A stretch of 41,834 nucleotides of DNA from Candidatus Bathyarchaeota archaeon (GCA_022865455.1 JALHSY010000046.1:1-41834), one strand, 5' to 3'; shown: positions 22,575 through 41,824, numbered from the stretch's first letter. The notes: generated by a model not told the origin, from the letters alone. A program made the numbers and translations.

Positions 22575-22640
22575 ATGGATCAGATGGTCCTCGAGGAAAA
22601 GGAAAAGGCGGAGAAAGAGGCGAAGAAACATGGCCGTTGA
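22575..22640 (+). CDS. Short Lys/Glu-rich peptide or -1 frameshift extension of the chaperone
   Basis: From the ATG at 22575 the frame gives 21 residues (MDQMVLEEKEKAEKEAKKHG plus R). The same frame is open upstream into the chaperone gene, in the -1 register relative to it, from at least position 22470. It ends 11 bases inside the next gene. It may be an independent peptide, but a translational fusion is the more familiar arrangement in tail operons. GCAAAAA at 22536-22542 is only a partial slippery site. Confidence 0.35.
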   Translation: MDQMVLEEKEKAEKEAKKHGR

Positions 22641-25797: not shown

Positions 25798-25838
25798 GGG
25801 GGTAGGGGCTGCGAAACATTAGGGTCAGACCATTTTTT

Positions 25839-27772: not shown

Positions 27773-27779
27773 TTTCAAC

Positions 27780-29252
27780 TTGAGAAGACACAGAGAGTTT
27801 TTCCGCATCCGCCAGCTTCGCAGGGTCTACGACAGAAGCCAGAACAGGTTCACCTTCAACATTTCGTATGAGACAGCTGCCAAGACCACGCCGAGGAGTA
27901 TAGCGGTTGCTGAGGCGTTCGGGCTTGGGTTAGACGAAGAGAAACGCTTCGTGATTTATGATAACGTGGAGTTGCAGGTGAAGCCTGACGACGTCGTCAT
28001 GGTCACGGGCGACAGTGGATCTGGGAAGAGCGTGTTACTACGAGCATTACGGGAGGATCTCGGCTCCGAAGCTGTGGACATGACAGAACTCGAGATTTCT
28101 AGCACTAAACCGTTAATCGAGACTGTAGGAGAGACGGTTGAAGAGGGCATTGAGACTCTAAGTCGCGTTGGCTTGAATGACGCATTTCTCTTCCTCAGGT
28201 CTTATGACCAGTTGAGTGACGGGCAGAAGTACCGTTACCGCATAGCCAAAATGGTTGAGAGTGGCAAACAGTGGTGGGTCGGCGATGAATTCTGTGCAAC
28301 GCTGGACCGCGATACGGCGAAGATTGTGGCGTTTAACGTGCAGAAGCTTGCAAGAACCTTGGGAAAGGCTGTTGTTGTGGCCACGACTCACACGGATTTG
28401 TTTGAGGATTTGAAGCCCAGCGTACACATCCACAAGAGGTTCGGCAAGGAAATCTGTGTAGTGTACTATACAAACGAGCCTGCAAGGGAATGCAGCCTTG
28501 TCAGAGAGATGCGTGTTGAAGAGGGTACAATGCAGGATTGGAACCAGCTCGCCGGCTTTCATTATCGTAGTCACAGGGTAGTTGCGCCTCGCAAAATCTT
28601 CTGTCTTAAGCGGGGGACCGAGGTGTGCGGAGTGATCGTTTATTGTTATCCGCCTCCCAGTGCCTACGGTCGAAGAATGGTTCTGCCCCGAATGAGCATG
28701 AAGGAATTGAATGAGAAGTTGAGCATTATCAACCGTGTGGTTGTGCATCCGAAGTATCGGAGTGTCGGTTTGGGTGCCAGGCTTATTCGTGAGTCGTTGG
28801 GTTTGGCTGGGACAGAGTTTGTGGAGATGATTGCGGTGATGGCTAAGTACAATCCTTTTGCAGAGAAGGCGGGGATGAAGAAGGTTACTGAGCAGGAGCC
28901 TCAGAGGGAGATTTTACGGGCTTCCAAGGTCCTTGAACAAGTCGGGTTTAATGTTCAGCTGCTTGGAAGCGGGAACTATGTATTTCAGAAACTTCAAGCA
29001 CTTAATGCCGACGGCCTGGAAAGGGTTAGGGAGGCCTTCGTCAAAGCTGACCATCCGCGCTTCTCAAAGTTTTTCAGCTCAGGGCTTCCATTCGGGCATA
29101 TGGGGGATTACGAGAGAAAGGTGAATGCTGCAACCTTGGAGCAGCTTGCAAGCCTTATCAAGATCTGCGGTTTTCTGATGCAGACGAAGGCTTACCTTTT
29201 CTGGAAATCCAAAAATCTTTGGAACAAATCTGGAATCTCTATAAATCTCTGA
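27780..29252 (+). CDS. ABC-type ATPase fused to GNAT acetyltransferase-like domain (COG2401-type)
   Basis: The 490-residue product starts at TTG. The ABC ATPase has Walker A GDSGSGKS (77-84), signature LSDGQKYRYRIA (145-156), Walker B WWVGDE (165-170) and switch His204 in ATTHTDL. A GNAT-like domain follows at about 250-400, with the acetyl-CoA loop region VVVHPKYRSVGLGARLI (320-336). There are no membrane segments, so it is not a transporter. Fusions of this sort occur next to terminase genes in mobile elements, and their reaction is unknown to me. The C-terminal 90 residues are extra. Confidence 0.78.
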   Translation: MRRHREFFRIRQLRRVYDRSQNRFTFNISYETAAKTTPRSIAVAEAFGLGLDEEKRFVIYDNVELQVKPDDVVMVTGDSGSGKSVLLRALREDLGSEAVDMTELEISSTKPLIETVGETVEEGIETLSRVGLNDAFLFLRSYDQLSDGQKYRYRIAKMVESGKQWWVGDEFCATLDRDTAKIVAFNVQKLARTLGKAVVVATTHTDLFEDLKPSVHIHKRFGKEICVVYYTNEPARECSLVREMRVEEGTMQDWNQLAGFHYRSHRVVAPRKIFCLKRGTEVCGVIVYCYPPPSAYGRRMVLPRMSMKELNEKLSIINRVVVHPKYRSVGLGARLIRESLGLAGTEFVEMIAVMAKYNPFAEKAGMKKVTEQEPQREILRASKVLEQVGFNVQLLGSGNYVFQKLQALNADGLERVREAFVKADHPRFSKFFSSGLPFGHMGDYERKVNAATLEQLASLIKICGFLMQTKAYLFWKSKNLWNKSGISINL

Positions 29253-29259
29253 AGTAAAG

Positions 29260-29329
29260 GTGCTGTAAAGTCTTCGGTGAAAACGAGCCCACTTGAGTCC
29301 TGTAAAAAATCGGTGAAAAATCGGTTGAT
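29260..29329 (+). repeat. 70-bp inverted repeat, left copy, flanking the restriction-modification cassette
   Basis: Its reverse complement recurs at 32864-32933 with two differences in 70 bases by eye. Read on the minus strand, each copy contains two versions of a motif of the form ACCGAnnnnTTnACAGnAC, at 29295-29314 and 29260-29278. The copy starts 7 bases after the ABC-GNAT stop and ends 24 bases before the methylase start, so it also occupies the likely promoter of the cassette. Confidence 0.93.
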
Positions 29330-29353
29330 GATTCTCTGACGTGAGAGCCCTAT

Positions 29354-31459
29354 GTGGAGGTGAGAATAACGTTAAATTCCGAAGAGGAACAAATACCTGC
29401 AAAGGTAACCGAGATGCCACCTAAGAAGAAGAGAAAACAAGAGGCACTCACAGTCTCAAGGCTCATACACGAAGTCTTAGTAAGCCAACTGAGCATCCCA
29501 CTACACCAAATCGTGAATGACACAACGTTTGCAGAGTACACTGGGTCAAAACGTCCTGACCTCTTAATTTCTGAATTTGAGTACGATCGAGTGAAGAAAA
29601 ACGATGCCCAATTCATCAATAATCTTGTTGCTTACGCGGAAGCCAAAGACGACTGTATTGTGAAAGGTGTAGATTGGTTAGATGCGATTCAGCAAGGTCT
29701 GACGAAAGCTCCGAAGCTCAAGCTTCCTTATTTCATCGTAACGAATGGTAAGACCAGCATATTTTACAATGCCAAGACTCAGAATGAAATAAAACTCAAT
29801 GGTAATCCGATTAGAGAATTTCAGACAATAGATATTCTTAGGTTAATAAAGAATCGGCTTTCAAAAGACCCTGATTTAGATAACATAATCACTAACGTAG
29901 ATTCAATCTCGGTCATCTCAGAAGCGATATTCAACAAGAAACTATGGGAACTCGCAAAGATTTACAGGAACATAAATTTCGAAAACAATGTTCAAAAAAT
30001 AGACTTCACGGTCGGCTTCATTTCACTGGAGTATTTTGAGGAAAGAGAAACGATAAAGGGAGTGAAAGACGCAACCAAGATTTACTGGTCAGATTGCTCA
30101 AACCATGCAGCGAATTATCCCTCTGAGAAGATTGTGGCAAGTCTTTCTCGGTATATAGAAAGACTGGAACAGGAATCGCAATTTGGCGAGTTTGTTGATT
30201 TAATGGAAAAGGTTCACATTGCGATAGCTGGAAAAGGAACAGTTAAACCATTAGTCAGCCATGACGAAGTGAAACAGGTCTATGAATTGATAGATTCGAT
30301 GAAACCTCTTCATGGTTGTGGCTTCGACCTCTTTGGGGCTGTCTATGAAATGTTCGCTAGTAGCAAGGAAAAGAAGGATTTTGGCGAATACTTTACTCGT
30401 AGACATTATGCACATATTCTTACAAAACTACTCCTTCGCAACGAACAGTATTTTGATGAAAACAGGAAATTTAGGATACTTGACCCAGCTTGCGGTACAG
30501 GTGGATTCTTGACAGAAGGTTTCAAAGTACTGCGAAATGCTTATGCTAAAACTAACACGCTGACTGCAAAAGCTGAAAAATTTCTAGAAGAAGATTGTTT
30601 CTATGGAATTGATGTAAGAAGAGAGAATATTTCCAGAACGAAACTTAACATGTTCTTGGTTGGAGATGGACACACAAATATGGAGGATATTAATACTTTA
30701 ACGAAGAAATTCGGCAAAGGAGACCTATGGGATTATGTTATTACGAATCCACCAGTTGGTGCAGGAACAATCAGAGCTGAAACATCTGTAGTTTCATCCA
30801 ACCGTACCGAAGTTTGTTTCCTATACAAAGTTATTAGCCTGCTCAAAGATGGCAAAAAGGCTTGCATCTTACTCCCTGATGGTATTCTAGAAAATGCACA
30901 ATTTACAGAACTTAGAAAGGATTTGTTGGAGAAATGCGATATAGAAGCAATCGTGTCTCTTCCGAAATTTGCTTTCGCCCCCTACACAAAAGAGAAGATG
31001 TATGCTGTTTTCTTTACGAAAAAGAACGAGGCAATGACCAAAATCCAGAAACAACCGATATGGATGTACATCATAGATAATGACGGTTTGGCAAATTCCG
31101 ACAAACGCTTTCCCACGAAATTGCGGAATAATCAAAACGGATGGTTGCATGATGAGATTTCAGGATGGGTAAGTACTGATGGTGAAGAAATGGTTGGATT
31201 GCTTGAAGAAAGGTGGCTCAAGTCTGATGATTCTTCAACAGATGGCACACAATGGATTGGTGAGAAAGGACAAGCTGTCAAATTCAGAAAAGGAGGACTC
31301 ATATCAATAACGGCAATTACGGAAAAGAAGTCACAGTATTGCCTTCTGCCAGAATATTATCTACGCCCATTCAAGCCAAATTTCATAACTGCCGAAGAAT
31401 TATCTGAAGAGATCAGCTTGATTGAACAAGAAGTCAAAAACTTAGAGGCAATCGCATGA
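29354..31459 (+). CDS. Restriction-modification protein: HsdR-N-type nuclease fused to N6-adenine methylase
   Basis: The 701-residue product starts at GTG. Residues about 35-145 form a PD-(D/E)xK nuclease of the HsdR N-terminal type, with Asp69 in KRPDLL and Glu96/Lys98 in AYAEAKDD. Residues about 300-600 are an HsdM-like methylase with SAM motif I LDPACGTGGFL (376-386). Catalytic motif IV reads NPPV (465-468), where the family nearly always has an aromatic residue after NPP. A fused nuclease-methylase plus separate specificity subunit resembles BcgI-like type IIB systems. No translocase HsdR gene is visible. It overlaps the specificity gene by 4 bases. Confidence 0.8.
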   Translation: MEVRITLNSEEEQIPAKVTEMPPKKKRKQEALTVSRLIHEVLVSQLSIPLHQIVNDTTFAEYTGSKRPDLLISEFEYDRVKKNDAQFINNLVAYAEAKDDCIVKGVDWLDAIQQGLTKAPKLKLPYFIVTNGKTSIFYNAKTQNEIKLNGNPIREFQTIDILRLIKNRLSKDPDLDNIITNVDSISVISEAIFNKKLWELAKIYRNINFENNVQKIDFTVGFISLEYFEERETIKGVKDATKIYWSDCSNHAANYPSEKIVASLSRYIERLEQESQFGEFVDLMEKVHIAIAGKGTVKPLVSHDEVKQVYELIDSMKPLHGCGFDLFGAVYEMFASSKEKKDFGEYFTRRHYAHILTKLLLRNEQYFDENRKFRILDPACGTGGFLTEGFKVLRNAYAKTNTLTAKAEKFLEEDCFYGIDVRRENISRTKLNMFLVGDGHTNMEDINTLTKKFGKGDLWDYVITNPPVGAGTIRAETSVVSSNRTEVCFLYKVISLLKDGKKACILLPDGILENAQFTELRKDLLEKCDIEAIVSLPKFAFAPYTKEKMYAVFFTKKNEAMTKIQKQPIWMYIIDNDGLANSDKRFPTKLRNNQNGWLHDEISGWVSTDGEEMVGLLEERWLKSDDSSTDGTQWIGEKGQAVKFRKGGLISITAITEKKSQYCLLPEYYLRPFKPNFITAEELSEEISLIEQEVKNLEAIA

Positions 31460-32598
31460 CCGAGTTTCTAGATATTTTTAAGCCAATTCAAAAGGGCAAT
31501 TTCGGTCTTACTGATGAAGCCATTTATAGATCAATTCAGCATGGGGGTCAATTCATCCCTGTATATGGTGGAACAAAAGAACACACTACGACAGACCGAT
31601 TCGTTTCAGAATATGGAAAAACGAAGTATGATGGATCTATTACGATTTTCACTGGTGATGGGATAATCATCAGTCTTGATGGGAGTTCAGGATGCATGAC
31701 CTATGTAATGGCTAAAAGATTCGCTCTAAATCATCATGCGGGATTCTTTCAGTTAAAAGAGGATGCAAAACAAGTAATTGACCCAGAGTTCTTCAGTCTC
31801 TTCTTTGAGAAACAACTTCAGGAAGCGAGCGTTAGCGAAGGCTCTAAAACATTGACCCTAAGTATGATAGAATCTATGGATTTTGATATGCCTCCGTACA
31901 GTGTCCAAATGAAGGTCATGTCAAGAATAAGATCACTTTTGAAAGTGAAAGAGAGAGTCAATAACCTGATCTCAAGAATAAATTCCGTCAAAGAAAGAAT
32001 ACTTTTGGTTGAATATCGAGATTATCAAGCAAAAGATGTTTCTGTTGGAGATGTTCTGGATTGCATGAGTGGAAATTCTGGACTTACAGAAGAGTATCTA
32101 TATTCGCAAATTAAAGATAATTCCGAAAAAAAATATCATATTTTGACAGCTAGCACCGAGCATGAATTGAGTCAGTATGTGTCTAGATGCAAACATCCAA
32201 AGGATTCAAGCAAAATGATAACAGTCGTGGAAGGAAAACCTGTGATTCATGTCGTACGAATCGGAAAAGCAGGCTCTGTCACATATTTTGAAAACGGCGA
32301 TTATACCACCACTGAAAATGCCTATCTTCTTTATTTGAAGGATAATTTGAAATACGATCTTAGCCTCAAATGGCTAACGTATGCACTAGCACCAGAGTTT
32401 TCGGAGTATTCCAACATTGCGGAATATGGAACTTGGAATATGACTGGTTTTTTCGAGCGTGTAAAGATTGCTATTCCATCTTATGAAGAGCAACTCGAAC
32501 TTGTTGAGAAGTATGAACGCCTTGAACTACTACAAGCAAAGTTACAAAGCATTTTGACAAAGATTGACCAACTCTTCACTAAGCAAATAGTTATCTAG
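31456..32598 (+). CDS. hsdS: Specificity subunit (HsdS-like)
   Basis: The 380-residue product has two target-recognition halves, each closed by a helical coiled coil: QMKVMSRIRSLLKVKERVNN near residues 153-172, and EQLELVEKYERLELLQAKLQ near the end. The first half ends SMIESMDFDMPPYSVQMKVM and the second NMTGFFERVKIAIPSYEEQL, the repeated -PPY/IPSYEEQ- hallmark of HsdS. It would direct the fused nuclease-methylase to a bipartite DNA site. ATGA overlap with the upstream gene. Confidence 0.85.
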   Translation: MTEFLDIFKPIQKGNFGLTDEAIYRSIQHGGQFIPVYGGTKEHTTTDRFVSEYGKTKYDGSITIFTGDGIIISLDGSSGCMTYVMAKRFALNHHAGFFQLKEDAKQVIDPEFFSLFFEKQLQEASVSEGSKTLTLSMIESMDFDMPPYSVQMKVMSRIRSLLKVKERVNNLISRINSVKERILLVEYRDYQAKDVSVGDVLDCMSGNSGLTEEYLYSQIKDNSEKKYHILTASTEHELSQYVSRCKHPKDSSKMITVVEGKPVIHVVRIGKAGSVTYFENGDYTTTENAYLLYLKDNLKYDLSLKWLTYALAPEFSEYSNIAEYGTWNMTGFFERVKIAIPSYEEQLELVEKYERLELLQAKLQSILTKIDQLFTKQIVI

Positions 32599-32664
32599 AA
32601 CAATATTTCAGAGAATCCAAAGGCATATATTTCAAGAATGGGAACAGTATTTTGGTGGTTTTAG

Positions 32665-32853
32665 ATGGCGAAGTGCCCAGAGTGCAAGAAAGAAGTAGCC
32701 AAATCTTCTAAGAAATGGAAATATTCTGCGTTCACTGTCGAACTATTCGAATGTGCTTGTGGAACGAAGTTTAGAGAGTACTCAAGAAATAGCAAGCATA
32801 TCTTCACCTTAAAGTTCAAGAAAGGTAAAGACAAAAGTTTCGTTAGAGCTTGA
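32665..32853 (+). CDS. Small zinc-ribbon protein in the restriction cassette
   Basis: The 62-residue product opens with MAKCPECKKEVAKSSKKWKY and has a second knuckle ECACGTKFREYS, so four Cys for one zinc. It lies inside the inverted repeats, 10 bases before the right copy, and is the last gene of the cassette. It may be a DNA-binding partner or a controller; no evidence distinguishes these. Confidence 0.65.
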   Translation: MAKCPECKKEVAKSSKKWKYSAFTVELFECACGTKFREYSRNSKHIFTLKFKKGKDKSFVRA

Positions 32854-32863
32854 TTTTGTTCCT

Positions 32864-32933
32864 ATCAACCGATTTTTCACCGATTTTTTACAGGACTCAT
32901 GTGGGCTCGTTTTCACCGAAGACTTCACAGCAC
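32864..32933 (-). repeat. 70-bp inverted repeat, right copy
   Basis: It is the reverse complement of the left copy, 68 of 70 bases by eye. On the plus strand it shows the paired motif ACCGATTTTTTACAGGACTC (from 32879) and ACCGAAGACTTCACAGCAC (from 32915), 36 bases apart. The 3.67-kb segment between the outer ends holds exactly three rightward genes. Confidence 0.93.
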
Positions 32934-33000
32934 TCTCATTGTAAAAGCTTTTATGAGCTAGACATTAGTATCTACCTTTGAAATTAGGTGGCGTTCTAGT

Positions 33001-33264
33001 TTGAGTAAAGACGAAGAATATGCTGAAGAACCATTCTTTGACCAGTTGTCCAGATTTATAAAAACAAACGAGAAATTTCTACTTGAGTTGATTGGAAAAT
33101 TTACAAAACAATCCTCACGACAATTCTATGCTAAGATTGGCGTGGTCGTAGCAATCTTGTTCTTTAGTAGCGTTCTATGTGGCTACGGAAGAATAAGTGG
33201 GGAGACTTTTGCAGGCATAGTCGGTGTTGTACTTGGTTATATTTTGGGCAAGGGCGTTCTATAG
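33001..33264 (+). CDS. Small membrane protein with two helices (FAGI motif)
   Basis: The 87-residue product starts at TTG with AGGTGG about 12 bases upstream. A charged cytoplasmic N-terminus (EPFFDQLSRFIKTNEKFLLE) precedes helices near 45-62 (AKIGVVVAILFFSSVL) and 67-85 (SGETFAGIVGVVLGYILG). The second helix matches that of the viral gene at 25552 (E-x-FAGI-x-G pattern). Function unknown. Confidence 0.6.
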   Translation: MSKDEEYAEEPFFDQLSRFIKTNEKFLLELIGKFTKQSSRQFYAKIGVVVAILFFSSVLCGYGRISGETFAGIVGVVLGYILGKGVL

Positions 33265-33310
33265 AAGCAAAATTAGTAATGCCTATTTGGTTAATAGTAT
33301 CCTCTTATCA

Positions 33311-33366
33311 ACCGAAAAGTAACACGTTCAAGAAAAAGACTCATCAATCGAAGAGGTAACAGAACC
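33311..33366 (+). repeat. Paired intergenic motif, copy set c
   Basis: ACCGAAAAGTAACACGTTC (from 33311) and ATCGAAGAGGTAACAGAACC (from 33347) lie 36 bases apart, the same spacing as in the right inverted repeat. The preceding bases TATCAACCGA are shared with that repeat as well. Confidence 0.6.
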
Positions 33367-33434
33367 TTTCATCCACTAACCATTTATTCGAGATGTACCT
33401 CAAGTATTAGCTGCAATAAAGGAGTTAACAAAAG

Positions 33435-33839
33435 ATGTTGAAAGACGAAATCATTGCAGCTCTGAATGAATTATTTGTAAAGTTCAAGGTGCCAATGAAG
33501 ATCAAAGATCTATTCCTGTACCGACCAGTTTTCCATGAAGTGCCTTTTGAGGATTTTGAACCTATTAATGAGGCTAACCGATTGACAAGTTGCGATCCTC
33601 TCTGTATCGAGTTAGACTATGAATGTGATGGCTATATCTTCTCCTATCATATGGAGTGTTCGAATAAAAAAGGTATTTTCAGAATCAAGGAAAAATGGCT
33701 AAAACATTCGGACATTTTCCCGAGAGATACGAAAGGCATTGAAGTGAATGAAAAAGATATAACTAGAAAAAGTAGGATAGATGTCTTTTCTTGGGTGTTG
33801 CTGAGACAGTTGGGTCTTTTAGCCAGAGATACGCATTAG
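33435..33839 (+). CDS. Hypothetical protein, 134 residues
   Basis: It starts at ATG with AAAGGAG about 13 bases upstream. The chain is acidic and soluble (FHEVPFEDFEPINEANRLTS; CDPLCIELDYECDGYIFSYH) with a helical end DVFSWVLLRQLGLLA. No family is recognised. It converges on the ArsR-type regulator, overlapping its 3' end by 4 bases. Confidence 0.5.
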   Translation: MLKDEIIAALNELFVKFKVPMKIKDLFLYRPVFHEVPFEDFEPINEANRLTSCDPLCIELDYECDGYIFSYHMECSNKKGIFRIKEKWLKHSDIFPRDTKGIEVNEKDITRKSRIDVFSWVLLRQLGLLARDTH

Positions 33840-34141
33840 CGTTTGAGAAAGTCAGACAGTTTGCTTTTTGTTTCCTCGTATTTAGGAGTTAAGTTAAAGA
33901 ATCGACCTGCTTTGCCCTTTGAATGAGGTTCTTCAACTACTTTGAATGCACTTTTTAAGAAGCCATTGTTTTGGAGTACACCTAAATGAAATGATATTAG
34001 CCGTCTATCCACGCCTGTTCCTTCAGCTATTGGCTCAATGTACATTTCTCCTTTCTCTTCCAGAATACGTAATATCTTTAGGCGTATTGGATGTAGCATT
34101 ATGATGCCTGATTTAACTAGTTCTGAATTTATATTTTCCAT
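33836..34141 (-). CDS. ArsR-type winged-helix regulator
   Basis: The 101-residue product is a single winged helix: LHPIRLKILRILEEKGEMYI (helix 1-2), EPIAEGTGVDRRLISFHLGV (recognition helix region), VLQNNGFLKSAFKVVEEPHS (wing), and a C-terminal helix. No Cys is present, so it does not use a Cys-based metal sensor. It is read leftward and its start overlaps the end of a small Cys-containing frame upstream. A (TA) tract about 140 bases upstream is the probable TATA box. Confidence 0.75.
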   Translation of the reverse strand: MENINSELVKSGIIMLHPIRLKILRILEEKGEMYIEPIAEGTGVDRRLISFHLGVLQNNGFLKSAFKVVEEPHSKGKAGRFFNLTPKYEETKSKLSDFLKR

Positions 34142-34263
34142 CGTATTCTCTCTCCCTTGACATAGAGTATATAATCAGTAGGTATGACATAAACTTTGTG
34201 GAACATTTTTCTAGCTGGTAACAGTCTTACCATCTGATTACACCTTGTACAGCTACAAAACAT
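34129..34263 (-). CDS. Possible small Cys-containing protein upstream of the ArsR-type gene
   Basis: From the ATG at 34263 the frame encodes 44 residues beginning MFCSCTRCNQMVRLLPARKM and ends 13 bases inside the regulator gene. The CSCTRC cluster suggests a metal site. The TA-rich tract at 34275-34287 is too close to the ATG for a normal leader: transcription would start just inside the frame. The gene is therefore uncertain. Confidence 0.35.
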   Translation of the reverse strand: MFCSCTRCNQMVRLLPARKMFHKVYVIPTDYILYVKGERIRWKI

Positions 34264-34274
34264 GTCGTGCGTCA

Positions 34275-34287
34275 ATATATATATATA
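34275..34287 (-). promoter_or_regulatory. TATA-like tract for the ArsR-type gene
   Basis: An alternating AT run lies upstream of the leftward small frame and the ArsR-type gene. By normal archaeal spacing the transcript would begin near 34255-34260 and carry a leader of about 115 bases ahead of the regulator. Confidence 0.4.
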
Positions 34288-34348
34288 GTTGATGAAAACA
34301 GAATCTGAATCCAAAGACTATGTCCCTTAAGTTAATAGTATCAGTCAT

Positions 34349-34399
34349 CCGACGAAAGTTCACATGAACCCCTAATCCGACGGAGACTACACAGAACCC
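34349..34399 (+). repeat. Paired intergenic motif, copy set d
   Basis: CCGACGAAAGTTCACATGAA-CCC (34349-34371) and CCGACGGAGACTACACAGAA-CCC (34377-34399) are tandem degenerate copies 28 bases apart, in the gap between two leftward genes. An imperfect hairpin (AGAAC with GTTCT plus CC with GG) overlaps the end of the second copy and the stop of the gene at 34404. Confidence 0.55.
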
Positions 34400-34403
34400 A
34401 CTT

Positions 34404-34913
34404 CTAGGGTGTTCTTAACTGTTTCCTGAACGAGACTTCAAGGCGATCAACAAGCTCATTGTACCTATCTCTAACCTCTCCATTTTGACGTATTACATTT
34501 TCAACCAGATGGATACTGATGCGACCATAGTCATGTGGTGTCTCCCTAAGCTGTATCAGTTTTTCTTTGCCGAAGTCAAATTTCCAAAAAGTCTCCATTA
34601 GAGATCTTAGTTCTTTCGTATGAATTTCTTCGATAAAAATTCTGTTTCGATTAACCATTTCTTCTGTTTTCTGAAGCTGCTCTGCAAATCTCTTAAGATT
34701 GTCGACGTTTGCAACTTTCCATAGTTTGTCTGCGGTTACTTTCAGATCGTATAAACTGCCCCACAATGATTTGTAAAGATCAAATTGCGATTGGTTATAT
34801 CTTGCTTTGTTCTCAAGTCTGCTCCTGTATTTTTCGACTGCTAGGGTTGATGCTGCTCCCACCACCCCTCCTAGAATCGCTCCAGCTACCGAAGCGACTA
34901 TTGTTTCTGACAC
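34404..34913 (-). CDS. Membrane-anchored coiled-coil protein
   Basis: The 169-residue product starts at GTG. The N-terminal helix ETIVASVAGAILGGVVGAAS (3-22) is a glycine-zipper-like membrane anchor. The rest is long charged helix (NVDNLKRFAEQLQKTEEMVN; QNGEVRDRYNELVDRLEVSF) facing the cytoplasm or outside. A TATATAA lies about 38 bases upstream and GGAG near the start. No family is recognised; small Gly-anchored coiled-coil proteins are common in defence islands, but that is only context. Confidence 0.6.
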   Translation of the reverse strand: MSETIVASVAGAILGGVVGAASTLAVEKYRSRLENKARYNQSQFDLYKSLWGSLYDLKVTADKLWKVANVDNLKRFAEQLQKTEEMVNRNRIFIEEIHTKELRSLMETFWKFDFGKEKLIQLRETPHDYGRISIHLVENVIRQNGEVRDRYNELVDRLEVSFRKQLRTP

Positions 34914-34946
34914 CGTTCCAAACTCCTTGAAAGCGTTTTAAAGCGT

Positions 34947-34956
34947 CTTATATAAC
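34947..34956 (-). promoter_or_regulatory. TATA box for the coiled-coil membrane protein gene
   Basis: TTATATAA on the minus strand lies about 38 bases ahead of the GTG at 34913, predicting a short leader that includes a GGAG. Confidence 0.45.
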
Positions 34957-35007
34957 TAGCATTTAAGATTATCTACATAGCGTGGGCTAAGGGCTAGTTT
35001 CTAGGTT

Positions 35008-35060
35008 ACCAAACGAAAGTTTACAGGGAGAACAACCAAACAAAGAGTTTACAGAACCCC
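35008..35060 (+). repeat. Paired intergenic motif, copy set e
   Basis: ACCAAACGAAAGTTTACAGG (from 35008) and ACCAAACAAAGAGTTTACAG, then AACCCC (from 35035), are tandem copies 27 bases apart. They sit between divergent promoters of the genes at 34404-34913 and 35112-35540. Confidence 0.65.
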
Positions 35061-35074
35061 AAAGAGAAAACCTT

Positions 35075-35084
35075 ATTTTTAAAA
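35075..35084 (+). promoter_or_regulatory. TATA box for the PUA/EVE-like gene
   Basis: TTTTTAAAAT lies about 32 bases before the ATG at 35112, predicting a leader of only a few bases. The repeat pair lies immediately upstream. Confidence 0.4.
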
Positions 35085-35111
35085 TCACTCACTTCTATCA
35101 TTGGTGAGATA

Positions 35112-35540
35112 ATGAGTGAGATGATGCGTTATTGGAAAATAGTTGCAGGACACCATGAACGCAGGGAACAAGCACCAGATGACATTAGATCAATACTACT
35201 AGGAGATTGGCTTCGCAAAAACTATATCGCAATAGGATGGGGGAAAGATAACCCACAACACAGAGTTTTCAGAGATGAAATGAAAATTGGCAATAGAGTA
35301 GTAGTCGTAGCTGACGGGTTCATATGGGCTATAGGTGCAATAACAGGCGAGTTTAAAGAAAAGACAAAGTTGCCTCAAGGTTCGCGTCTTTACGAATTTC
35401 AAAGAGAAGTGGTCTGGTACAAGATCACAAAACTAAGTTATTCAAATTTTGAAAAATCTCTCAAGAACAAACTAGGGGCAAACCGCACAATAAACGAATT
35501 AAGTTCCGACCAATGGGAAAGCATAGTTAATCGCGTTTGA
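35112..35540 (+). CDS. Stand-alone PUA/EVE-like domain protein (McrB N-terminal-like)
   Basis: The 142-residue product begins MMRYWKIVAGHHERREQAP and has WLRKNYIAIGWGKDNPQHRV, then EMKIGNRVVVVADGFIWAIG and REVVWYKITKL. This order (YWKI, IAIGW, KIGDxVV, iwaiG, VxW) matches the PUA-like domains at the N-terminus of McrB-type and related proteins that read modified bases. Here no nuclease or GTPase is attached. It may be a reader partner for other proteins of this region. The assignment is by pattern memory. Confidence 0.55.
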   Translation: MSEMMRYWKIVAGHHERREQAPDDIRSILLGDWLRKNYIAIGWGKDNPQHRVFRDEMKIGNRVVVVADGFIWAIGAITGEFKEKTKLPQGSRLYEFQREVVWYKITKLSYSNFEKSLKNKLGANRTINELSSDQWESIVNRV

Positions 35541-35553
35541 TTTTATAAAAAGC

Positions 35554-35613
35554 GCCGATGGTTAACAGACCTCTCAATAAAGCCTTGAAGTGCCGAAGAG
35601 TTAACAGAACCTC
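35554..35613 (+). repeat. Paired intergenic motif, copy set f
   Basis: GCCGATGGTTAACAGACCTC (from 35554) and GCCGAAGAGTTAACAGAACC, then TC (from 35592), lie 38 bases apart between convergent genes, which argues against a simple promoter role. Confidence 0.65.
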
Positions 35614-36010
35614 ATTCCTTAAACCTTAAATCTTGCCTTAGTTTGAAAGCGCCAGGTCTTATTTGTTGCAGAATCCTCAGGTAATCGCGAAACTTCACAG
35701 TAAGAATGTCTCGCTGTCTTATACCAAAGAAAAGACTGATCTTGTACTGGGTAAGAATGCCGTAAGAAGGCTTGTGGAGTTCTTTGCTTCCAATGTAGGC
35801 CAGACAAGCTTTAACAACATCAGCTGATTTACCGGATAGAAACGCGGCGCCAGTTCCTCTCTCGGATTCATACTCGTAAATCAGTTTGATCCATGAAGCG
35901 ACCTCGGCAGCATCTTCAAGCGTAAAGCCTAACTCACGCAGTTCCCGATAGAACTGTTTACAATCAATGCGCAAGCAGGCAAAGCAGACCTTTTCAGGAG
36001 TTTCAGGCAT
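35612..36010 (-). CDS. Possible TFIIB-like cyclin-fold protein
   Basis: The 132-residue product has Cys at KVCFACLRIDC near the start. The region from about residue 38 (VASWIKLIYEYESERGTGAA), continuing SGKSADVVKACLAYIGSKEL, KPSYGILTQYKI and FGIRQRDILTVKFRDYLRIL, follows the pattern of one TFIIB cyclin repeat (G-rS-x-vvaAclYia, then a helix ending in a DNA-contact helix). It has only one repeat. It could be a TFB-derived regulator or a chance resemblance. Confidence 0.42.
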   Translation of the reverse strand: MPETPEKVCFACLRIDCKQFYRELRELGFTLEDAAEVASWIKLIYEYESERGTGAAFLSGKSADVVKACLAYIGSKELHKPSYGILTQYKISLFFGIRQRDILTVKFRDYLRILQQIRPGAFKLRQDLRFKE

Positions 36011-36176
36011 TTCCTCACAAAATTATGTAAGAGTAACTGTTTTCTTTAAGTCTTGTGTAGCGCGCATGCTTGTTCCTAAATTGTCTAAAATGATTTTTGT
36101 TCGTGTTTTACGAATTGAGGACGGTCTTGGACTTCGCATTGTTCCTGAATTCCTTGCCGCAACCAGCCTTCTCGAA

Positions 36177-36198
36177 CCAGCGAAAGTTTGCAGAACGG
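36177..36198 (+). repeat. Single intergenic motif, copy g
   Basis: CCAGCGAAAGTTTGCAGAAC followed by GG matches one unit of the paired motif. I could not find a partner unit 27-38 bases upstream. It lies in the 211-base gap between two leftward genes; the rest of that gap holds nothing I can name apart from GCGCGC at 36060. Confidence 0.4.
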
Positions 36199-36221
36199 AA
36201 CAAAAACCATTTTTAACCATT

Positions 36222-36485
36222 TTAGGAACACGCATACGTGCTAAGCTTCTGGACAGTGACTTTCAATCCTAGACCCTTTTCTCTTGATTTCATGTACCTT
36301 GTTTCAAGCTTGACTACCTTCACATCCTTTCTTCCTTCTACAAATCTCATCACGTCATACCTGACGTCTCCGAGGGCCGTGAGCGTCACTCTTTCGTCTG
36401 TTTGCAGGCGCTTCTCAAGCTGCTCCTTCCATTTTCCATCACGACCGCAAAATATCATGCCTTTGGGTCTCTCATTGTCACTCAT
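36222..36485 (-). CDS. Hypothetical protein, 87 residues
   Basis: I take the ATG at 36485 (MSDNERPKGMIFCGRDGKWK) over one five codons up. The chain is basic with a helix EQLEKRLQTDERVTLTALGD and a strand-rich end VKVVKLETRYMKSREKGLGL. It looks like a small nucleic-acid-associated protein but matches no family I know. Confidence 0.45.
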   Translation of the reverse strand: MSDNERPKGMIFCGRDGKWKEQLEKRLQTDERVTLTALGDVRYDVMRFVEGRKDVKVVKLETRYMKSREKGLGLKVTVQKLSTYACS

Positions 36486-36610
36486 AAGCGTCTCACACAC
36501 CGACTTGCTTGCTTAGTATCGACTTGACAGAAACCCGTACTTGGCTTTTTCCATTAAACAATGCGATTTAGCAACGCCCCAGCGCGCATTTGGAAATTGA
36601 CAGTCAGTTC

Positions 36611-36637: not shown

Positions 36638-37120
36638 ATGGACACCGAACAGTTAATCAAAAACATGAAAGCATCTCTCTTGATTGCGCGATGTCCAAAA
36701 TGCGACGAAGAGTTCAAGCTTTCTGACTCACTGCTTTTTGATGGCATGAAAAGATTCCCAGATGCTGCCGAACAGATCAGGATACAGCTTGCCGAAGAAC
36801 TAGAGAAGAAAAAGAAGGAACTTGAGAAAAGAAAAATATCAGTTGATGTGACTGCTGAAAAGAAAGCGATTGAGGTAGGCTTCGGTAAGATGATAGAGAA
36901 ATTTCTTCCGGCATACAAGGATCTTGAACTGCAATTTGCCGAATGCAGACCTTTGTATGATCCTATTGACGTGTTGGTTTTCAATGGGTTGTTAAACAGG
37001 AAAGTTGACAGCATTACGTTCCTAGAGATAAAATCAGGAAATTCAAAGCTAAACAACCATCAAAAGATGATAAAAGACGCTATACTAGACAAGAAAGCCG
37101 ACATGAGGGTTCTAGGATGA
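36638..37120 (+). CDS. Holliday-junction-resolvase-like endonuclease (active-site intact)
   Basis: The 160-residue product has one zinc-type knuckle CPKC (19-22), a charged coiled coil (LAEELEKKKKELEKRKISVD), then a resolvase-like PD-(D/E)xK domain. That domain shows PLYDPIDVLVFNG with Asp108 and Asp111, and SITFLEIKSG with Glu130 and Lys132. This resembles COG4741-type proteins, distant relatives of archaeal Hjc. It probably acts on branched or damaged DNA. It overlaps the next gene, a degenerate paralogue, by 4 bases (ATGA), suggesting a heteromeric complex. The transcript appears leaderless. Confidence 0.72.
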   Translation: MDTEQLIKNMKASLLIARCPKCDEEFKLSDSLLFDGMKRFPDAAEQIRIQLAEELEKKKKELEKRKISVDVTAEKKAIEVGFGKMIEKFLPAYKDLELQFAECRPLYDPIDVLVFNGLLNRKVDSITFLEIKSGNSKLNNHQKMIKDAILDKKADMRVLG

Positions 37121-37623
37121 AAGAATCGATAGATGTTTTCCAACAGTTTAGAAAAATCCTTTGCGTCTGCCCTTGCTGTGGGGAGATAGTAAGACTGAGT
37201 GACCTTCATCTCAAATACTCTGGCAAAACACCGAAAACTTGGCTTGACAAGCATGAGCTCCAGCTCCAATCCTTGGAGGAAAAAGAACAAGTCTTTGAAC
37301 AGAAAGAAGGAGAATTGCGGAAGAAATCAATAGAGCGCGGACGACGAAAGGTGCCTTTGCTGGTCAAGAAATGCCTCTGTCCAGAGTTCCAGGAACTGAA
37401 GTACGACCCATATGACATTAAGGCAGTTATGGATCCAGTGGATTTTGTGGTGTTTGATGGGCTTAATGAAGGAGAGGAGATAAGAAGCATTACGTTTCTA
37501 TCTCGAAAACCTAGTGCAGATACAGGCGTTGTGACCGAATCAATCAGAAAAACAGTGAAAAAAGGCAACTATGACTGGAAAGTGGCCAGAATAACAACAA
37601 CAGGAAAAGTCAGTCTCGAATGA
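37117..37623 (+). CDS. Holliday-junction-resolvase-like paralogue lacking the catalytic Glu
   Basis: The 168-residue product has the same layout as its neighbour: a Cys knuckle (CVCPCCGE), coiled coil (EEKEQVFEQKEGELRKKSIE), and nuclease-like fold with MDPVDFVVFDG (Asp106). The catalytic strand reads SITFLSRKPS, so the expected Glu is Ser129 while a Lys is kept at 131. It is probably a non-cleaving partner subunit. Identity with the neighbour is low outside these motifs. Confidence 0.7.
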   Translation: MKESIDVFQQFRKILCVCPCCGEIVRLSDLHLKYSGKTPKTWLDKHELQLQSLEEKEQVFEQKEGELRKKSIERGRRKVPLLVKKCLCPEFQELKYDPYDIKAVMDPVDFVVFDGLNEGEEIRSITFLSRKPSADTGVVTESIRKTVKKGNYDWKVARITTTGKVSLE

Positions 37624-37650
37624 TGTAGCCATTTTCTGACAAAACGTACA

Positions 37651-37678
37651 GCGCGCGCTAAGGGTGCAGTAGAGACCC
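37651..37678 (+). repeat. GCGCGCGC-hairpin element, copy A
   Basis: GCGCGCGC, then TAA, then a 4-bp stem GGGT/ACCC around a 9-base loop ending TAGAG. A second copy at 38326 keeps the octamer, loop length and TAGAG but has stem GGGC/GCCC, so one base pair has covaried. It lies 27 bases after a stop codon. Confidence 0.6.
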
Positions 37679-37691
37679 ATTAAACCAGAAC

Positions 37692-37698
37692 TTTTATT
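37692..37698 (+). promoter_or_regulatory. TATA-like box for the transglutaminase-like gene
   Basis: TTTTATT is centred 26 bases before the ATG at 37721, consistent with a leaderless start. Confidence 0.35.
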
Positions 37699-37720
37699 CA
37701 GATTCACTGAGAAGTAAGAC

Positions 37721-38323
37721 ATGGAGTGGTTAGAAATGGCTTCACCAGTAGCTTCACCGCAAGAGTCACCTTTTCCAAAAGGAAGGCGCAATCTTCACGG
37801 ACTTTTAGTAGCCTTAATAGTGGTATGTGTTGTGGGATTGCCTATTTCATTTTTTGTAGGGCGTTCCAATGGATACGATTCAGGTCACTCCGATGGATAC
37901 GGCTTAGGTTATTTCATTGGGTACGAATCTGGAAGGTTTGACTTCTATTATATTAAACCTGAGCAGAAATATGGAGCCTACGATCTGAGTGATTGGCTGA
38001 ACAAGTGGAAGTGGATAAAACCTTATCAAGAAGGAGTTTTTGATTGCAGCGAAATGAGTGCCTATCTTGAGTGGAAATTGGAGAATGAAGGATGGCACAC
38101 GAGGATTATTGTTGGAGATAGCCCATTTGGTTCAGGACGACATGCATGGCTGCTTGTTGAAACAAGCAATGGCAAATACATGCCTGTAGAATCAACAAAC
38201 ATGGCTGTAGTGTTGTGGGATTCTCCTCACTTTGACAACTACTTCAAGTATGACCGTACCTTTGAAACGATACAGGATGCTTTGAAATATAGCGAAACAG
38301 AATTTGATTGGTGGAAGAGTTGA
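37721..38323 (+). CDS. Membrane-anchored transglutaminase-like cysteine peptidase
   Basis: The 200-residue product has a basic N-terminus, one membrane helix (HGLLVALIVVCVVGLPISFF, 26-45), then a Gly/Tyr-rich linker with GYxxG steps (50-70) and a soluble domain. Cys109 in VFDCSEMSAYLEWKLENEGW, His141 in GRHAWLLVET and Glu157 in MPVEST fit the Cys-His-acid triad of transglutaminase-like folds. The domain would face outside the cell and may cleave or crosslink peptide bonds at the envelope. The third residue is usually Asp; Glu here needs a structural check. Confidence 0.62.
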   Translation: MEWLEMASPVASPQESPFPKGRRNLHGLLVALIVVCVVGLPISFFVGRSNGYDSGHSDGYGLGYFIGYESGRFDFYYIKPEQKYGAYDLSDWLNKWKWIKPYQEGVFDCSEMSAYLEWKLENEGWHTRIIVGDSPFGSGRHAWLLVETSNGKYMPVESTNMAVVLWDSPHFDNYFKYDRTFETIQDALKYSETEFDWWKS

Positions 38324-38325
38324 TA

Positions 38326-38356
38326 GCGCGCGCCAATTGGGGCTAAATAGAGGCCC
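38326..38356 (+). repeat. GCGCGCGC-hairpin element, copy B
   Basis: GCGCGCGC, then CAATTG, then stem GGGC/GCCC around a 9-base loop ending TAGAG. It starts 2 bases after the stop at 38323. See copy A for the covarying pair. The remainder of this 238-base gap shows no other clear element. Confidence 0.6.
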
Positions 38357-38576
38357 TACTGAAACACAGTTAGTGTCCATCGGTTTCTTATCATTCGCTA
38401 TTTGCCGCTGGATAGACATAACCTAAGTTGCCAGATGACACTGGATTATCAGTCCTTGCGGTTTCGATGTTAAATTTGACAAGCTCTGACTGACTTCGGT
38501 TTCTTACGCTGTTTTTAGCATAGGAATCGAAGAATCTCGAAGCCGACAAAGCCATATTAGCTTGAAAGGCGAGAGC

Positions 38577-38954
38577 ATGTTTCGGGCGGTAACTATGATC
38601 AAACAATCCTGCAACCCTGAATATGATCTATTTTCAGATCTTTCTCGGAGCAAATATGATGTATTGGATGAAGTGAAGAGTTTTCTTGACTCGAATGACA
38701 TAATCTGGGATCATCTTTCCCAGCTTCTCTTCAAATCTACCAGTGCCTGTTTTGACTACAGCTTCGGAGACATAGCCATTAGTTTCTCACGACGTGGATG
38801 TTGGCCTGAGAAAAATGATGAGCATGTGATTCAGCTGTCGATTGAGAACCAGAAAGGCAATGTTGAAAGGAAAGTGACGTATGAATACAACCTCAGAGAG
38901 CTCGCTAAGCTTAGGAAGAGAAAGCAATCGACACTGGACAGTTATGGTGAGTAG
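38577..38954 (+). CDS. Hypothetical protein, 125 residues
   Basis: I take the ATG at 38577 (MFRAVTMIKQSCNPEYDLFS), though a TTG at 38562 is in frame. The chain is soluble with SKYDVLDEVKSFLDSNDIIW and a basic C-terminal helix YNLRELAKLRKRKQSTLDSY. No family is recognised. The S27ae-like gene starts 3 bases after its stop, so they are co-transcribed. Confidence 0.5.
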   Translation: MFRAVTMIKQSCNPEYDLFSDLSRSKYDVLDEVKSFLDSNDIIWDHLSQLLFKSTSACFDYSFGDIAISFSRRGCWPEKNDEHVIQLSIENQKGNVERKVTYEYNLRELAKLRKRKQSTLDSYGE

Positions 38955-38957
38955 AAC

Positions 38958-39125
38958 ATGAAACAACATTACACTGTCAAAGATGGCAAACTCTTTAGGA
39001 GTAATCCTTTTTGTCCCAGATGCGGAGAGGGTGTCTTCATGTCAGATAAAGGACAATGGTGGTCATGCGGAAAATGTGGCGACCGATACAACAAGAAGAC
39101 CTTCAAGTTCGTAACTCCAAGATGA
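38958..39125 (+). CDS. S27ae-like zinc-ribbon protein, 55 residues
   Basis: It is too short for common ORF cut-offs. The sequence HYTVKDGKLFRSNPFCPRCG, then GVFMSDKGQWWSCGKCGDRY, closely follows the archaeal ribosomal protein S27ae pattern, with the zinc ligands Cys19, Cys22, Cys37 and Cys40 all present. In this accessory setting, away from ribosomal genes, it is probably a duplicated or captured copy; it may be the only copy if the chromosome lacks another. It lies 3 bases after one gene and 6 before the next. Confidence 0.72.
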   Translation: MKQHYTVKDGKLFRSNPFCPRCGEGVFMSDKGQWWSCGKCGDRYNKKTFKFVTPR

Positions 39126-39131
39126 GCACGC

Positions 39132-39752
39132 ATGCCCAAAGTCTTTTGCGCCTTGTTAAGATGGCCACGCAACGAGGATGACATTCGACCCGATCCCAAG
39201 TATGAAGAAGGCAGTTTTGGCAGTACTGGGTGTCATTCACGCAATTTGTTAAGCGATAGGGGATTCAGAAACGGCAGAATCCAGAGAGGAGATCGACTTA
39301 TGTTTGTTCAAGGAAGCAAAATAGTCTTCATTGCTCCTGAACTGAACCTTGTAGACAAAGACGAAAAAGGTCATGTAGTGCTTCATTGGGATCCCAGCTG
39401 GAGGTGCAAACAAAAGAGACCGTTGAAGATTAAACATGCCATGGAACTTGACCTATTACACGCGCAGATGATAAACCCACGGATATTCAACCTCAGATTG
39501 ACCAGTTCTTACTTAAGGAGTTACAGTCTGCCGGCTGTGAATCCAGATAGGTTGCTCAGAGACTATGAAAGCTTGTTGAAGGAAAAGCAGGAAAGATTGA
39601 AGGACGAAATATTCGTCAATCTATATTGCGAAACTTTCTGTGCGGGAGGCAGTTGCCATAGGTGCGAAAAGTCAACCAGAACATCTAGATTTCGCACGAG
39701 GGCGGAACTAGGAAGAAATGAGGAAAAGCCGAGACTTAATAGCCACAGATAA
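39132..39752 (+). CDS. Conserved hypothetical protein with GSFG-TGCH motif
   Basis: The 206-residue product has DIRPDPKYEEGSFGSTGCHS, NLLSDRGFRNGRIQRGDRLM and FVQGSKIVFIAPEL. This pattern recalls small PUA-like or Nmad-type domains linked to DNA modification, but the match is loose. The C-terminus has a Cys cluster (NLYCETFCAGGSCHRCEKS) that may bind zinc. It is followed 24 bases later by an Nmad3-like gene, which strengthens a shared role. Confidence 0.5.
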   Translation: MPKVFCALLRWPRNEDDIRPDPKYEEGSFGSTGCHSRNLLSDRGFRNGRIQRGDRLMFVQGSKIVFIAPELNLVDKDEKGHVVLHWDPSWRCKQKRPLKIKHAMELDLLHAQMINPRIFNLRLTSSYLRSYSLPAVNPDRLLRDYESLLKEKQERLKDEIFVNLYCETFCAGGSCHRCEKSTRTSRFRTRAELGRNEEKPRLNSHR

Positions 39753-39776
39753 GCATACAAGACCTTGGGGAAAACT

Positions 39777-40643
39777 ATGAAAAGTTTGCTCATTCGTGTT
39801 GCGATAGATTCAGGAAATATGGGTTACATAGGACCGATTGATGAAAGAACAATGGAATACGTGTATATACCTATCCCTACTATTGAAACGGCTCTCACAA
39901 AGCGGACATACAACACTGAAAGAGTGTGGCCGCGAAACACAGTTTTTGAAGGCAAGGTGTTGGCTGACTTCATGCACACTGACAGGGCAGAGGTTCGTTT
40001 GGATTACGACTGGATAGAACAAGTGTGGATTGAACGAAAACTCCCTGCAAATAGTCTGAAAATTCACTTTGATCCTGAGTTTGATGGGAATACTTATGGA
40101 GATTCTTGGGGAAACAGAATACCGTCAGACCTCATTTTGCCTAGTGCTCTAGATGAGGAGATTCATTTGTTCTTTTATGCGGGACTTGCACCTTATCCCA
40201 AGTGCTTCGAAAAGCGATCACAGCACCAAATCATAAGCAGTCAAAAATATAGTATGAACGTCTATGTTATTGGCCACTTTGAAATCGAAGGAATCTACAG
40301 TATCAGAAAAGAGGGAGATCTATCAACCTTCGAGAAAGAATTGGGAACGAATGCGCATTTCATTGAGAAGGAACACCTCAAGGGACTTGAGAAGTATCCG
40401 ATCAAAGCTGAGCGAGAGCATTTTTCGAACTTGGTGATTGTCAAGGGTAAGAAGAAGGAATCAAGAGGGCTCTTATCCAAGGCAATACAATTAACCAAAT
40501 GGAGTGAAAGAAAAAGAGCTTACATCCCAACAGAACTTGGCGAGATAGTAGGACTAAAACCGAATAGAGGGATCAGGCAGACCCCACACCTGGATAGTAA
40601 CAGTACCAGCTCCCTTTTGGACGAGATTGACTCGACAATCTAG
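39777..40643 (+). CDS. Nmad3-like (nucleotide-modification-associated) protein
   Basis: I take the ATG at 39777 (MKSLLIRVAIDSGNMGYIGP), 288 residues, over one four codons up. Matches to the Nmad3 pattern as I know it are the N-terminal strand with D-S-G-N, YIPIPTIETALTKRTYNTER, KIHFDPEFDGNTYGDSW, HLFFYAGLAPYP and MNVYVIGHFEIEGIY. The late segment NLVIVKGKKKESRGLLSKAI also fits. This domain was proposed from genome context to work with modified bases; its reaction is unproven. The C-terminal 20 residues are Ser-rich. Confidence 0.55.
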   Translation: MKSLLIRVAIDSGNMGYIGPIDERTMEYVYIPIPTIETALTKRTYNTERVWPRNTVFEGKVLADFMHTDRAEVRLDYDWIEQVWIERKLPANSLKIHFDPEFDGNTYGDSWGNRIPSDLILPSALDEEIHLFFYAGLAPYPKCFEKRSQHQIISSQKYSMNVYVIGHFEIEGIYSIRKEGDLSTFEKELGTNAHFIEKEHLKGLEKYPIKAEREHFSNLVIVKGKKKESRGLLSKAIQLTKWSERKRAYIPTELGEIVGLKPNRGIRQTPHLDSNSTSSLLDEIDSTI

Positions 40644-40671: not shown

Positions 40672-40883
40672 TTCAAATCGGTCAAGTTGTGAATTGGAAA
40701 TCGGCGCGCTATCCCAGCGACTTCATCTCACTTTTATTCTACACTCTGTGCAGTTGTCAGATGTCTTTTCACAAGAGCGTTTTTAACGGCTTTGCACCCA
40801 GGTAGACACAGAGAGTAGAGCGGAGGCTCTCTCGCAGCAGACGGTTGTTGAATAGAGGTGTATGATGTTTGGTTAGATTGCAG

Positions 40884-41090
40884 ATGCGGCTTGCGAGAAA
40901 GAGGTATCTGAAGAGCAAAAGAGTATACGAGTACGAACGAATTTCTCTACATATCCCAAGGAAGCTTCACGACGCCATCAAACCCTATCTAAAGGAGGAC
41001 TTGGACCTGAAAGTCGCAACCGAAAAAGGCTCTCTGATTCTTATTCTGACTCCGCAAAAACGTTTCTGCCCGCCGAATACACCCCGCTAA
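40884..41090 (+). CDS. Small basic archaeal protein
   Basis: From the ATG at 40884 the frame gives 68 residues (a TTG at 40869 adds five). The basic start RLARKRYLKSKRVYEYERIS leads into SLHIPRKLHDAIKPYLKEDL and a strand GSLILILTPQ. This looks like a small DNA-associated protein, though no named family fits. Its last codons overlap the first of two exact 17-base repeats. Confidence 0.5.
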   Translation: MRLARKRYLKSKRVYEYERISLHIPRKLHDAIKPYLKEDLDLKVATEKGSLILILTPQKRFCPPNTPR

Positions 41091-41202
41091 AATCAGCCCC
41101 TGAACGGCTTCAGACACTTGAATTTTAACACGAAAATGCAAATGTTGCTTAAATATCTGCCAGCCGAAAGATTTTCCGCTAGGGGCGTTTCTGCCCGCCG
41201 AA
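41061..41202 (+). repeat. Exact 17-base direct repeat
   Basis: CGTTTCTGCCCGCCGAA occurs at 41061-41077 and 41186-41202, 125 bases apart. The first is in the end of a gene and the second is in the following 209-base gap. The gap also contains a TTAAATAT at about 41151 that could be a TATA box. Confidence 0.6.
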
Positions 41203-41299
41203 ACGTTTTGCCGAGGGTTTCAGCACACAAAAACATGTCTATTAATGTAAATAGCAACTTCCGCGCAAGTTTTCTTGACCGGGCCATGGTGTTTAGCGT

Positions 41300-41774: not shown

Positions 41775-41824
41775 GTGGCTCTGAAGTCTTCGGTTGATAC
41801 GAGCCCTTGTGAAAAATCGGTTGA
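41775..41824 (+). repeat. Third, shortened copy of the cassette-flanking repeat
   Basis: It has the same orientation as the left copy at 29260. The ends GAAGTCTTCGGT and GAAAAATCGGTTGA and the core ACGAGCCC are kept, while about 20 bases of the centre are replaced by TTGT. Its two motif units on the minus strand lie 27 bases apart, the shorter of the two spacings seen elsewhere. Confidence 0.75.

Follow-up and report, generated by a model that had tools for sequence, protein, structure and literature searches.

Genes and sites in the window

We analysed a 41,834-nucleotide stretch of DNA from Candidatus Bathyarchaeota archaeon (GCA_022865455.1, JALHSY010000046.1:1-41834; hereafter the window), in which a first-pass annotation had described a degenerate motif recurring in pairs across intergenic gaps. 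At positions 29259-32934, genes for a methyltransferase and a specificity subunit of restriction-modification (R-M) type lie between ends that are 97% inverted copies of each other, and both ends contain the paired motif. Four further right ends (R2-R5) follow this element, with one or two genes between successive ends, and another end faces left close to the end of the contig. We argue, with a probability of roughly 0.8, that an archaeal family of IS6/IS240-like DDE transposons, which would insert at promoters, has the paired motif as its terminal inverted repeat. Each site comprises two related but different half-motifs in an invariant order, with type I, CCGAnnnTTNACA, first and type II, CCGAAGASTTNACAGAACC, second in the aligned sites. 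The R-M element and its borders are made up as follows; BRE denotes the TFB-recognition element and ORF an open reading frame.

29240..29245, minus strand: TATA-like TTTATA, 14 bp outside the left tip, reading leftwards (BRE/TATA matrix, exact register, 0.3% of background positions)
29259..29329, minus strand: left end of the R-M element, tip at 29259 (R1-profile match; 97% inverted repeat with 32864-32933; end alignment)
Layout of the left end, minus strand: type II half-site at 29259-29277, type I further in, one extra partial half-site (end alignment)
29354..31459, plus strand: N6 adenine methyltransferase with a weak HSDR_N-type start, cargo (Pfam N6_Mtase, 2.3e-31)
31456..32598, plus strand: Type I specificity subunit, cargo (Pfam Methylase_S, 1.3e-12)
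32665..32853, plus strand: small 62-aa ORF inside the element (ORF only, no family)
32864..32934, plus strand: right end R1 of the R-M element, tip at 32934 (R1-profile match, inverted repeat)
32949..32954, plus strand: TATA-like TTTTAT outside right end R1, before ORF 33001-33264 (matrix, exact register, 0.2% of background)

Architecture and statistics of the sites

The half-site cores span 14 bases (type I) and 15 bases (type II) and are direct repeats in all aligned sites. We read the stretch from 28.5 to 41.8 kb for the motif and also scanned the window with the consensus from the first-pass annotation; the motif and its pairs were present within a few bases of the positions reported there. 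At three or fewer mismatches this consensus matches the window five times, against 0.12 expected from shuffles, and pairing of type I with type II arose in none of 200 simulated windows. Since the matrix used for the pairing had been trained with the window's own sites, an independent scan of other genomes carries more weight. Across 163 genomes of the same Bathyarchaeota order, the exact type II pattern has 20 matches, compared with 1 for a reversed control pattern, and a sequence-only profile of the whole site (the R1 profile, trained on 18 sites, 7 of them from the window, with a threshold of E up to 0.01 per genome) has 180 matches in 63 genomes.

The two spacing classes originally proposed hold over 105 sites, with 79 half-site spacings of 26-28 bp, 24 of 35-39 bp and 2 others, whereas shuffled upstream sequence yields 0.86 sites in total. 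It had also been suggested that a protein binds the same face of the helix at both half-sites. The two classes do share a relative phase, but spacings of 27 and 37 bp correspond to about 2.6 and 3.5 turns, which places the half-sites on roughly opposite faces. Recognition of the phased pair by a protein is probable. The bases preceding the two half-sites match within a site at 6.0 of 8 positions, compared with 4.05 ± 0.12 for re-paired sites, and none of 2000 shuffles reached this agreement. The agreement points to one protein per element, with a specificity that differs among subfamilies.

The single copy at 36177 had been counted with the motif, but it is part of another repeat, 186 bp long (36058-36243). 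Other copies of that repeat read, for example, CAGAAGTTTGCAG, and we have therefore removed the 36177 copy from the family. The 186-bp element has terminal inverted repeats of its own (TAGCGCGCATGC...) and contains the motif by chance; copies that are approximately 88-91% identical occur in its own genome (C81), in the sister species G032 and in G075. The motif had not been noticed in the viral and host part of the window, where the scan found only one weaker, unpaired match, at 22504. A block resembling a provirus, in which Pfam and PHROGs matches identify tail, head and terminase genes, occupies approximately 9000-28000 of the window; host purine genes lie on one side of it and the row of ends on the other. 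Rfam and tRNA searches of the window found no RNA gene match, and we rejected an RNA gene on that ground.

Transposon ends, target duplications and transposase

Outward-facing inverted pairs of ends span 0.4-5.7 kb. In 15 complete elements (L082, L087, L090, L092, L132, L135, L136, the outer pair of L172, L175, L181, L189, L196, L208, L209 and L219), the 8 bases directly outside the two tips are identical with zero offset, an exact 8-bp target duplication. L090 is a 0.6-kb remnant; the other fourteen elements are 2.4-5.7 kb long. The duplication is still present in L132, L181 and L196, whose left and right ends belong to different variants. The 8-bp target has an AT-rich middle, and the tips are of the GGTTCTGT...ACAGAACC type. 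Ends are approximately 50-90 bp long with two or more half-sites each, and column counts over 116 ends give 108 for the final C, 107 for a further C and a nearly invariant ACAG (a GG tip with CTGTt inside).

Most complete elements encode a transposase of approximately 375 aa. It combines a SWIM zinc finger at the N-terminus with a zinc ribbon of the IS1 type and a DDE domain of the IS6/IS240 type, in which the DDE residues are invariant. This protein scores 62.2 against Pfam DDE_Tnp_IS240 (cut-off 27) and 123.7 against NCBIfam IS6, just below the curated cut-off of 125; a profile search of solved structures returned weak matches only, to integrase cores. Its named relatives are from Bathyarchaeota and many Thaumarchaeota. 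Among the matches listed, sites are also present in 34 of the 36 genomes that have the SWIM/IS6-like transposase (34 genomes with ends and transposase, 21 with ends only, 2 with transposase only and 106 with neither; Fisher p ~3e-18). Thus, one protein family does co-occur with the sites, as the first-pass annotation had envisaged, but it is a transposase and not a regulator.

C-terminal fragments of the transposase, some merely 20-30 residues long, lie directly inside many solo ends, and remnants just inside solo ends are on the same strand in 33 cases and on the opposite strand in 5. C-terminal fragments outnumber N-terminal ones by 47 to 6, an excess that we do not use as proof and that may be partly a detection bias, because the C-terminus is better conserved. 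Taken as sequence evidence, these data make the identity of the sites as transposon ends firm.

Insertion at a fixed distance from promoters

When flanks are aligned at the tip, a TATA hexamer starts at +14 or +15 in 40 of 129 (0.39 expected per position), and the stack resembles the BRE in having R at +8 and A at both +10 and +11. The same peak is seen in 7 of 21 flanks from other archaea. With a matrix trained without the scored locus, 48 of 144 ends exceed the 99% background level, where 4.3 are expected. Ten of the 15 duplicated elements (L082, L090, L132, L172, L175, L181, L189, L196, L208 and L219) have a strict TATA hexamer starting at +14 to +16 on exactly one side, in either orientation. 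In the window, BRE/TATA elements stand in exact register at R4, R5 and both ends of the R-M element (0.05-0.3% of background positions), so that both flanks of that element score as TATA targets; R1 and R4 precede plus-strand genes.

Because tips hold a fixed distance to TATA in the stacked flanks, different ends join homologous flanks at an identical base (L041/L095, L132/L248, L082/L287 and L091/L259). The clean empty-site case is the thermosome locus: three genomes (G150, G151 and G152) have three different ends at one and the same base ahead of the thermosome promoter, and five relatives (G143, G145, G146, G154 and G155) have no end there. For L092, uninterrupted relatives are present, but the junction alignment is too loose to prove a single copy of the 8-mer. 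We also found head-to-head ends 8 bp apart, which the 8-bp duplication at a promoter-fixed target identifies as insertions made one after another at a single target. The 8-mer CTCATCAG of L094 lies between two elements and occurs a second time ahead of the TATA. Comparison of these loci strongly supports promoter-positioned insertion. The earlier view that the motif is more than a promoter was right. The sites are transposon ends, facing either way relative to genes, and what links them to promoters is insertion position, since the distance from the tip to the BRE/TATA element downstream of it is fixed.

The target may be picked out by TBP/TFB bound at the promoter; alternatively, the TATA-like DNA may be what is recognised. 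It is possible, though less likely than not, that the transposon directly prefers AT-rich or bent DNA and takes no account of the promoter or its proteins, given that the 8-bp target is AT-rich in its middle and that the left tip in the window faces a TATA within the 3' end of a gene. Such a preference sits less easily with a signal that has an orientation (40 forward against 11 reverse at +14/+15), is exact to 1-2 bp and includes the BRE-like R at +8 and A at +10/+11.

Solo ends in the window and rows of ends

The features to the right of the R-M element are:

33001..33264, plus strand: 87-aa ORF between R1 and R2 (ORF only)
33306..33366, plus strand: solo right end R2, variant ATCAACC, half-site spacing 36 (R1-profile match, 33.4 bits)
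33435..33839, plus strand: 134-aa ORF between R2 and R3 (ORF only)
33836..34141, minus strand: ArsR-like winged helix-turn-helix protein between R2 and R3 (Pfam HTH_20, 5.1e-08)
34347..34398, plus strand: solo right end R3, variant ATCCGAC, spacing 28 (R1-profile match, 32.2 bits)
34404..34913, minus strand: 169-aa ORF between R3 and R4 (ORF only)
35007..35058, plus strand: solo right end R4, variant ACCAAAC, spacing 27 (R1-profile match, 33.3 bits)
35072..35084, plus strand: TATA-like CTTATTTTTAAAA outside R4, before ORF 35112-35540 (matrix, exact register, 0.05% of background)
35112..35540, plus strand: 142-aa ORF between R4 and R5 (ORF only)
35550..35611, plus strand: solo right end R5, variant GCGCC/GTGCC, spacing 38 (R1-profile match, 38.1 bits)
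35626..35631, plus strand: TATA-like TTAAAT outside R5 (matrix, exact register, 0.2% of background)
41775..41824, minus strand: further end facing left, tip at approximately 41775, whose element would extend past the contig (R1-profile match, 34.0 bits)

R2-R5 are solo ends of four different variants and are most simply read as the remains of further insertions. Similar rows occur elsewhere: neighbouring ends less than 1 kb apart have the same orientation in 17 cases, face outward in 2 and are head-to-head in 4. Within rows, a TATA is faced by 10 of 17 outer ends and by only 3 of 17 inner ends. Nested insertion, with every inner end facing the next gene's promoter, fits R1 and R4 in the window, but it predicts a TATA outside inner ends, and we have not adopted it as the general origin. 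We favour serial insertion at one target, which would be followed by loss of the inner-facing end. A less likely origin is end-to-end exchange, as in the conservative reaction of IS26, in which a circle carrying a gene and one end would join the tip of a resident end in the manner of gene cassettes. Two contigs of genome G011 fit such an exchange, since they share a flank (97% identity over 1,063 bp) that abuts the tips of different ends, and one contig has a single gene-end unit where the other has two, although the contigs may represent two strains in one bin; so do the prevalence of same-orientation pairs below 1 kb (17 versus 6) and the excess of outer over inner ends that face a TATA. However, serial insertion with loss of the inner-facing end yields an identical picture, intact stacks exist (L094), and the ends of one row are of different variants.

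Cargo

The elements and rows contributed 79 proteins (a few from just outside the ends), including 5 N6 adenine methyltransferases and 5 specificity domains. R-M type cargo is present in five separate elements (that of the window, L132, L135, L208 and L209). The methyltransferases are mutually only 23-42% identical, so that elements probably gained cargo of this kind on more than one occasion. Two of the 79 proteins match AbiV-type HEPN domains, and a CAP12/Pycsar-type TIR protein adjoins the other end in the window's own genome (C206). The bulk of the cargo is short, with no function assigned.

Other observations

Two Holliday-junction-resolvase-like nucleases (Endonuc_Holl) and an Nmad3 protein adjoin the row in the window (36638-40643), which suggests a wider defence or mobile island. 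Positions 36237-36569 and 40704-41457 are 95% and 84% identical to a contig of the same genome (C64, L010), another repeated block. In the left flank of L092 (G048:C3, ~42700), an intergenic block of approximately 30 bp (query 308-336, around TATTTAAG) lies upstream of a gene that probably encodes a small-molecule transporter. Many genomes of the family have this block at approximately 90-97% identity, and it is perhaps a conserved regulatory site. One gene block with 94-98% identity is shared by L084 (1706-2345), L288 and L081 (5866-6504), from three genomes of different genera and families; it adjoins different transposon ends, and the transfer is recent. L296 and L301 (G005:C37 and G116:C128), contigs from genomes that are placed in different families, are 99.8% identical, probably a binning error.

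A model for promoter-directed insertion

An end consists of a tip of the GGTTCTGT type and two or more half-sites, and we suggest that the transposase would bind these half-sites in fixed order with 27- or 37-bp phasing. The sequences show that insertion yields an 8-bp target duplication. They also show that BRE and TATA start approximately 7 and 14 bp away from the tip on its outer side, in both orientations, and that the same target can be reused by later elements, leaving ends 8 bp apart. Passenger genes are usual in such elements, and the one in the window has kept its ends and R-M genes but not a transposase.

Several observations weigh against the assignment of the sites to a promoter-directed transposon family. 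All the genomes except a few are metagenome bins. The R-M element lacks a target duplication, the 8-mers outside its two tips being different, and no transposase remnant above the level of shuffled sequence was detected inside the cassettes of the window. The TTTATA at 29240..29245 lies within the 3' end of ORF 27780-29252, and is perhaps no true promoter. No clear TATA stands in register at R3 (tip 34398) or at the end at 41775, where scores are weak, and the register is shifted by 3 at R2 (tip 33366); the scarcity of TATA at the inner ends of rows counts on the same side. The 8-mers outside the other right ends in the window do not match that at the left tip either. One possible cause of the missing duplication would be an intramolecular rearrangement of the kind made by replicative insertion sequence (IS) elements. 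In the genome to which the window belongs, this transposase is present as a fragment only (C206; 85% identity across 112 residues), and the copies in the window therefore look like remains or would need transposase in trans.

A reading of the sites as operators, in line with the first-pass idea of a regulator, by which such a protein would bind the paired motif upstream of promoters to control defence-type genes and mobility would be secondary, accounts for phased half-sites, for ends at a fixed distance upstream of TATA and for well-preserved solo ends, but is very improbable and was rejected as the main interpretation given exact target duplications, inverted pairs, a transposase, ends in convergent gaps and in either orientation to genes, different loci in different genomes, relatives without ends at conserved promoters, and inner ends of rows that mostly lack a TATA.

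A more specific form of the transposon interpretation, which we put forward tentatively and at a little below even odds, is that the family recognises the assembled core promoter (TBP/TFB on BRE-TATA), integrates upstream of it at a set distance and so adds cargo, including defence genes, beside intact active genes, with promoter reuse and tip exchange building arrays gene by gene. This, if true, would account for the spread of cargo transposons through compact archaeal genomes with the genes left intact. The ends would provide a handle for finding cargo and defence genes in Bathyarchaeota and Thaumarchaeota, and the role of TBP/TFB in target choice would become directly testable.

Comparison with known systems

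The nearest known counterpart is the IS6/IS26 family (zinc-finger clades h/i and the archaeal clades), which shares the 8-bp duplication, the GG tip with CTGTt and, in clades h/i, a zinc-finger extension; the DDE domain is apparently of the IS240 type as well, scoring above the Pfam cut-off but just below that of NCBIfam IS6. A review of the family reports 8-bp duplications and GG tips, recognises clades with zinc fingers and lists one member with a passenger gene, ISDsp3 (PMC7986276). Membership of the archaeal and long IS6 forms is disputed (PMC6807381). IS6/IS26 elements have one short repeat of 14-20 bp and a length of 700-900 bp, whereas the elements described here have ends of approximately 50-90 bp, exceed 2 kb in fourteen of fifteen cases, and add the SWIM finger, routine cargo and promoter-fixed insertion. 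A survey of thaumarchaeal mobile elements found that IS-like transposons typically have one or two genes (PMC6563490). Multi-part ends, routine cargo and promoter-fixed insertion in elements of this kind came up in none of the reports we found in the open-access literature, which lacks most subscription papers; nor did any archaeal or bacterial transposon with promoter-fixed insertion, an absence that is weak evidence. The criteria for a casposon (Cas1 integrase, 14-15 bp duplication) disagree with the 8-bp duplication and DDE transposase found here.

Judged by its sequence, the window element resembles mobile insertion cassettes and passenger-carrying IS (tIS) in having IS-like ends, passenger genes and no transposase, and differs in its R-M cargo and promoter-linked target. 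Two further likenesses would be of working only. Integron cassette arrays also consist of rows of genes split by same-orientation sites, with the strand of the genes free, but inverted cores of the attC type are absent here; the half-sites are direct, on which ground we rejected attC, and belong to the ends of a DDE transposon. The yeast elements Ty3 and Ty1 integrate at a fixed distance upstream of the core promoter, sparing the gene. The family described here may work in a similar way, with the difference that Ty3/Ty1 are retroelements and these are archaeal DDE DNA transposons.

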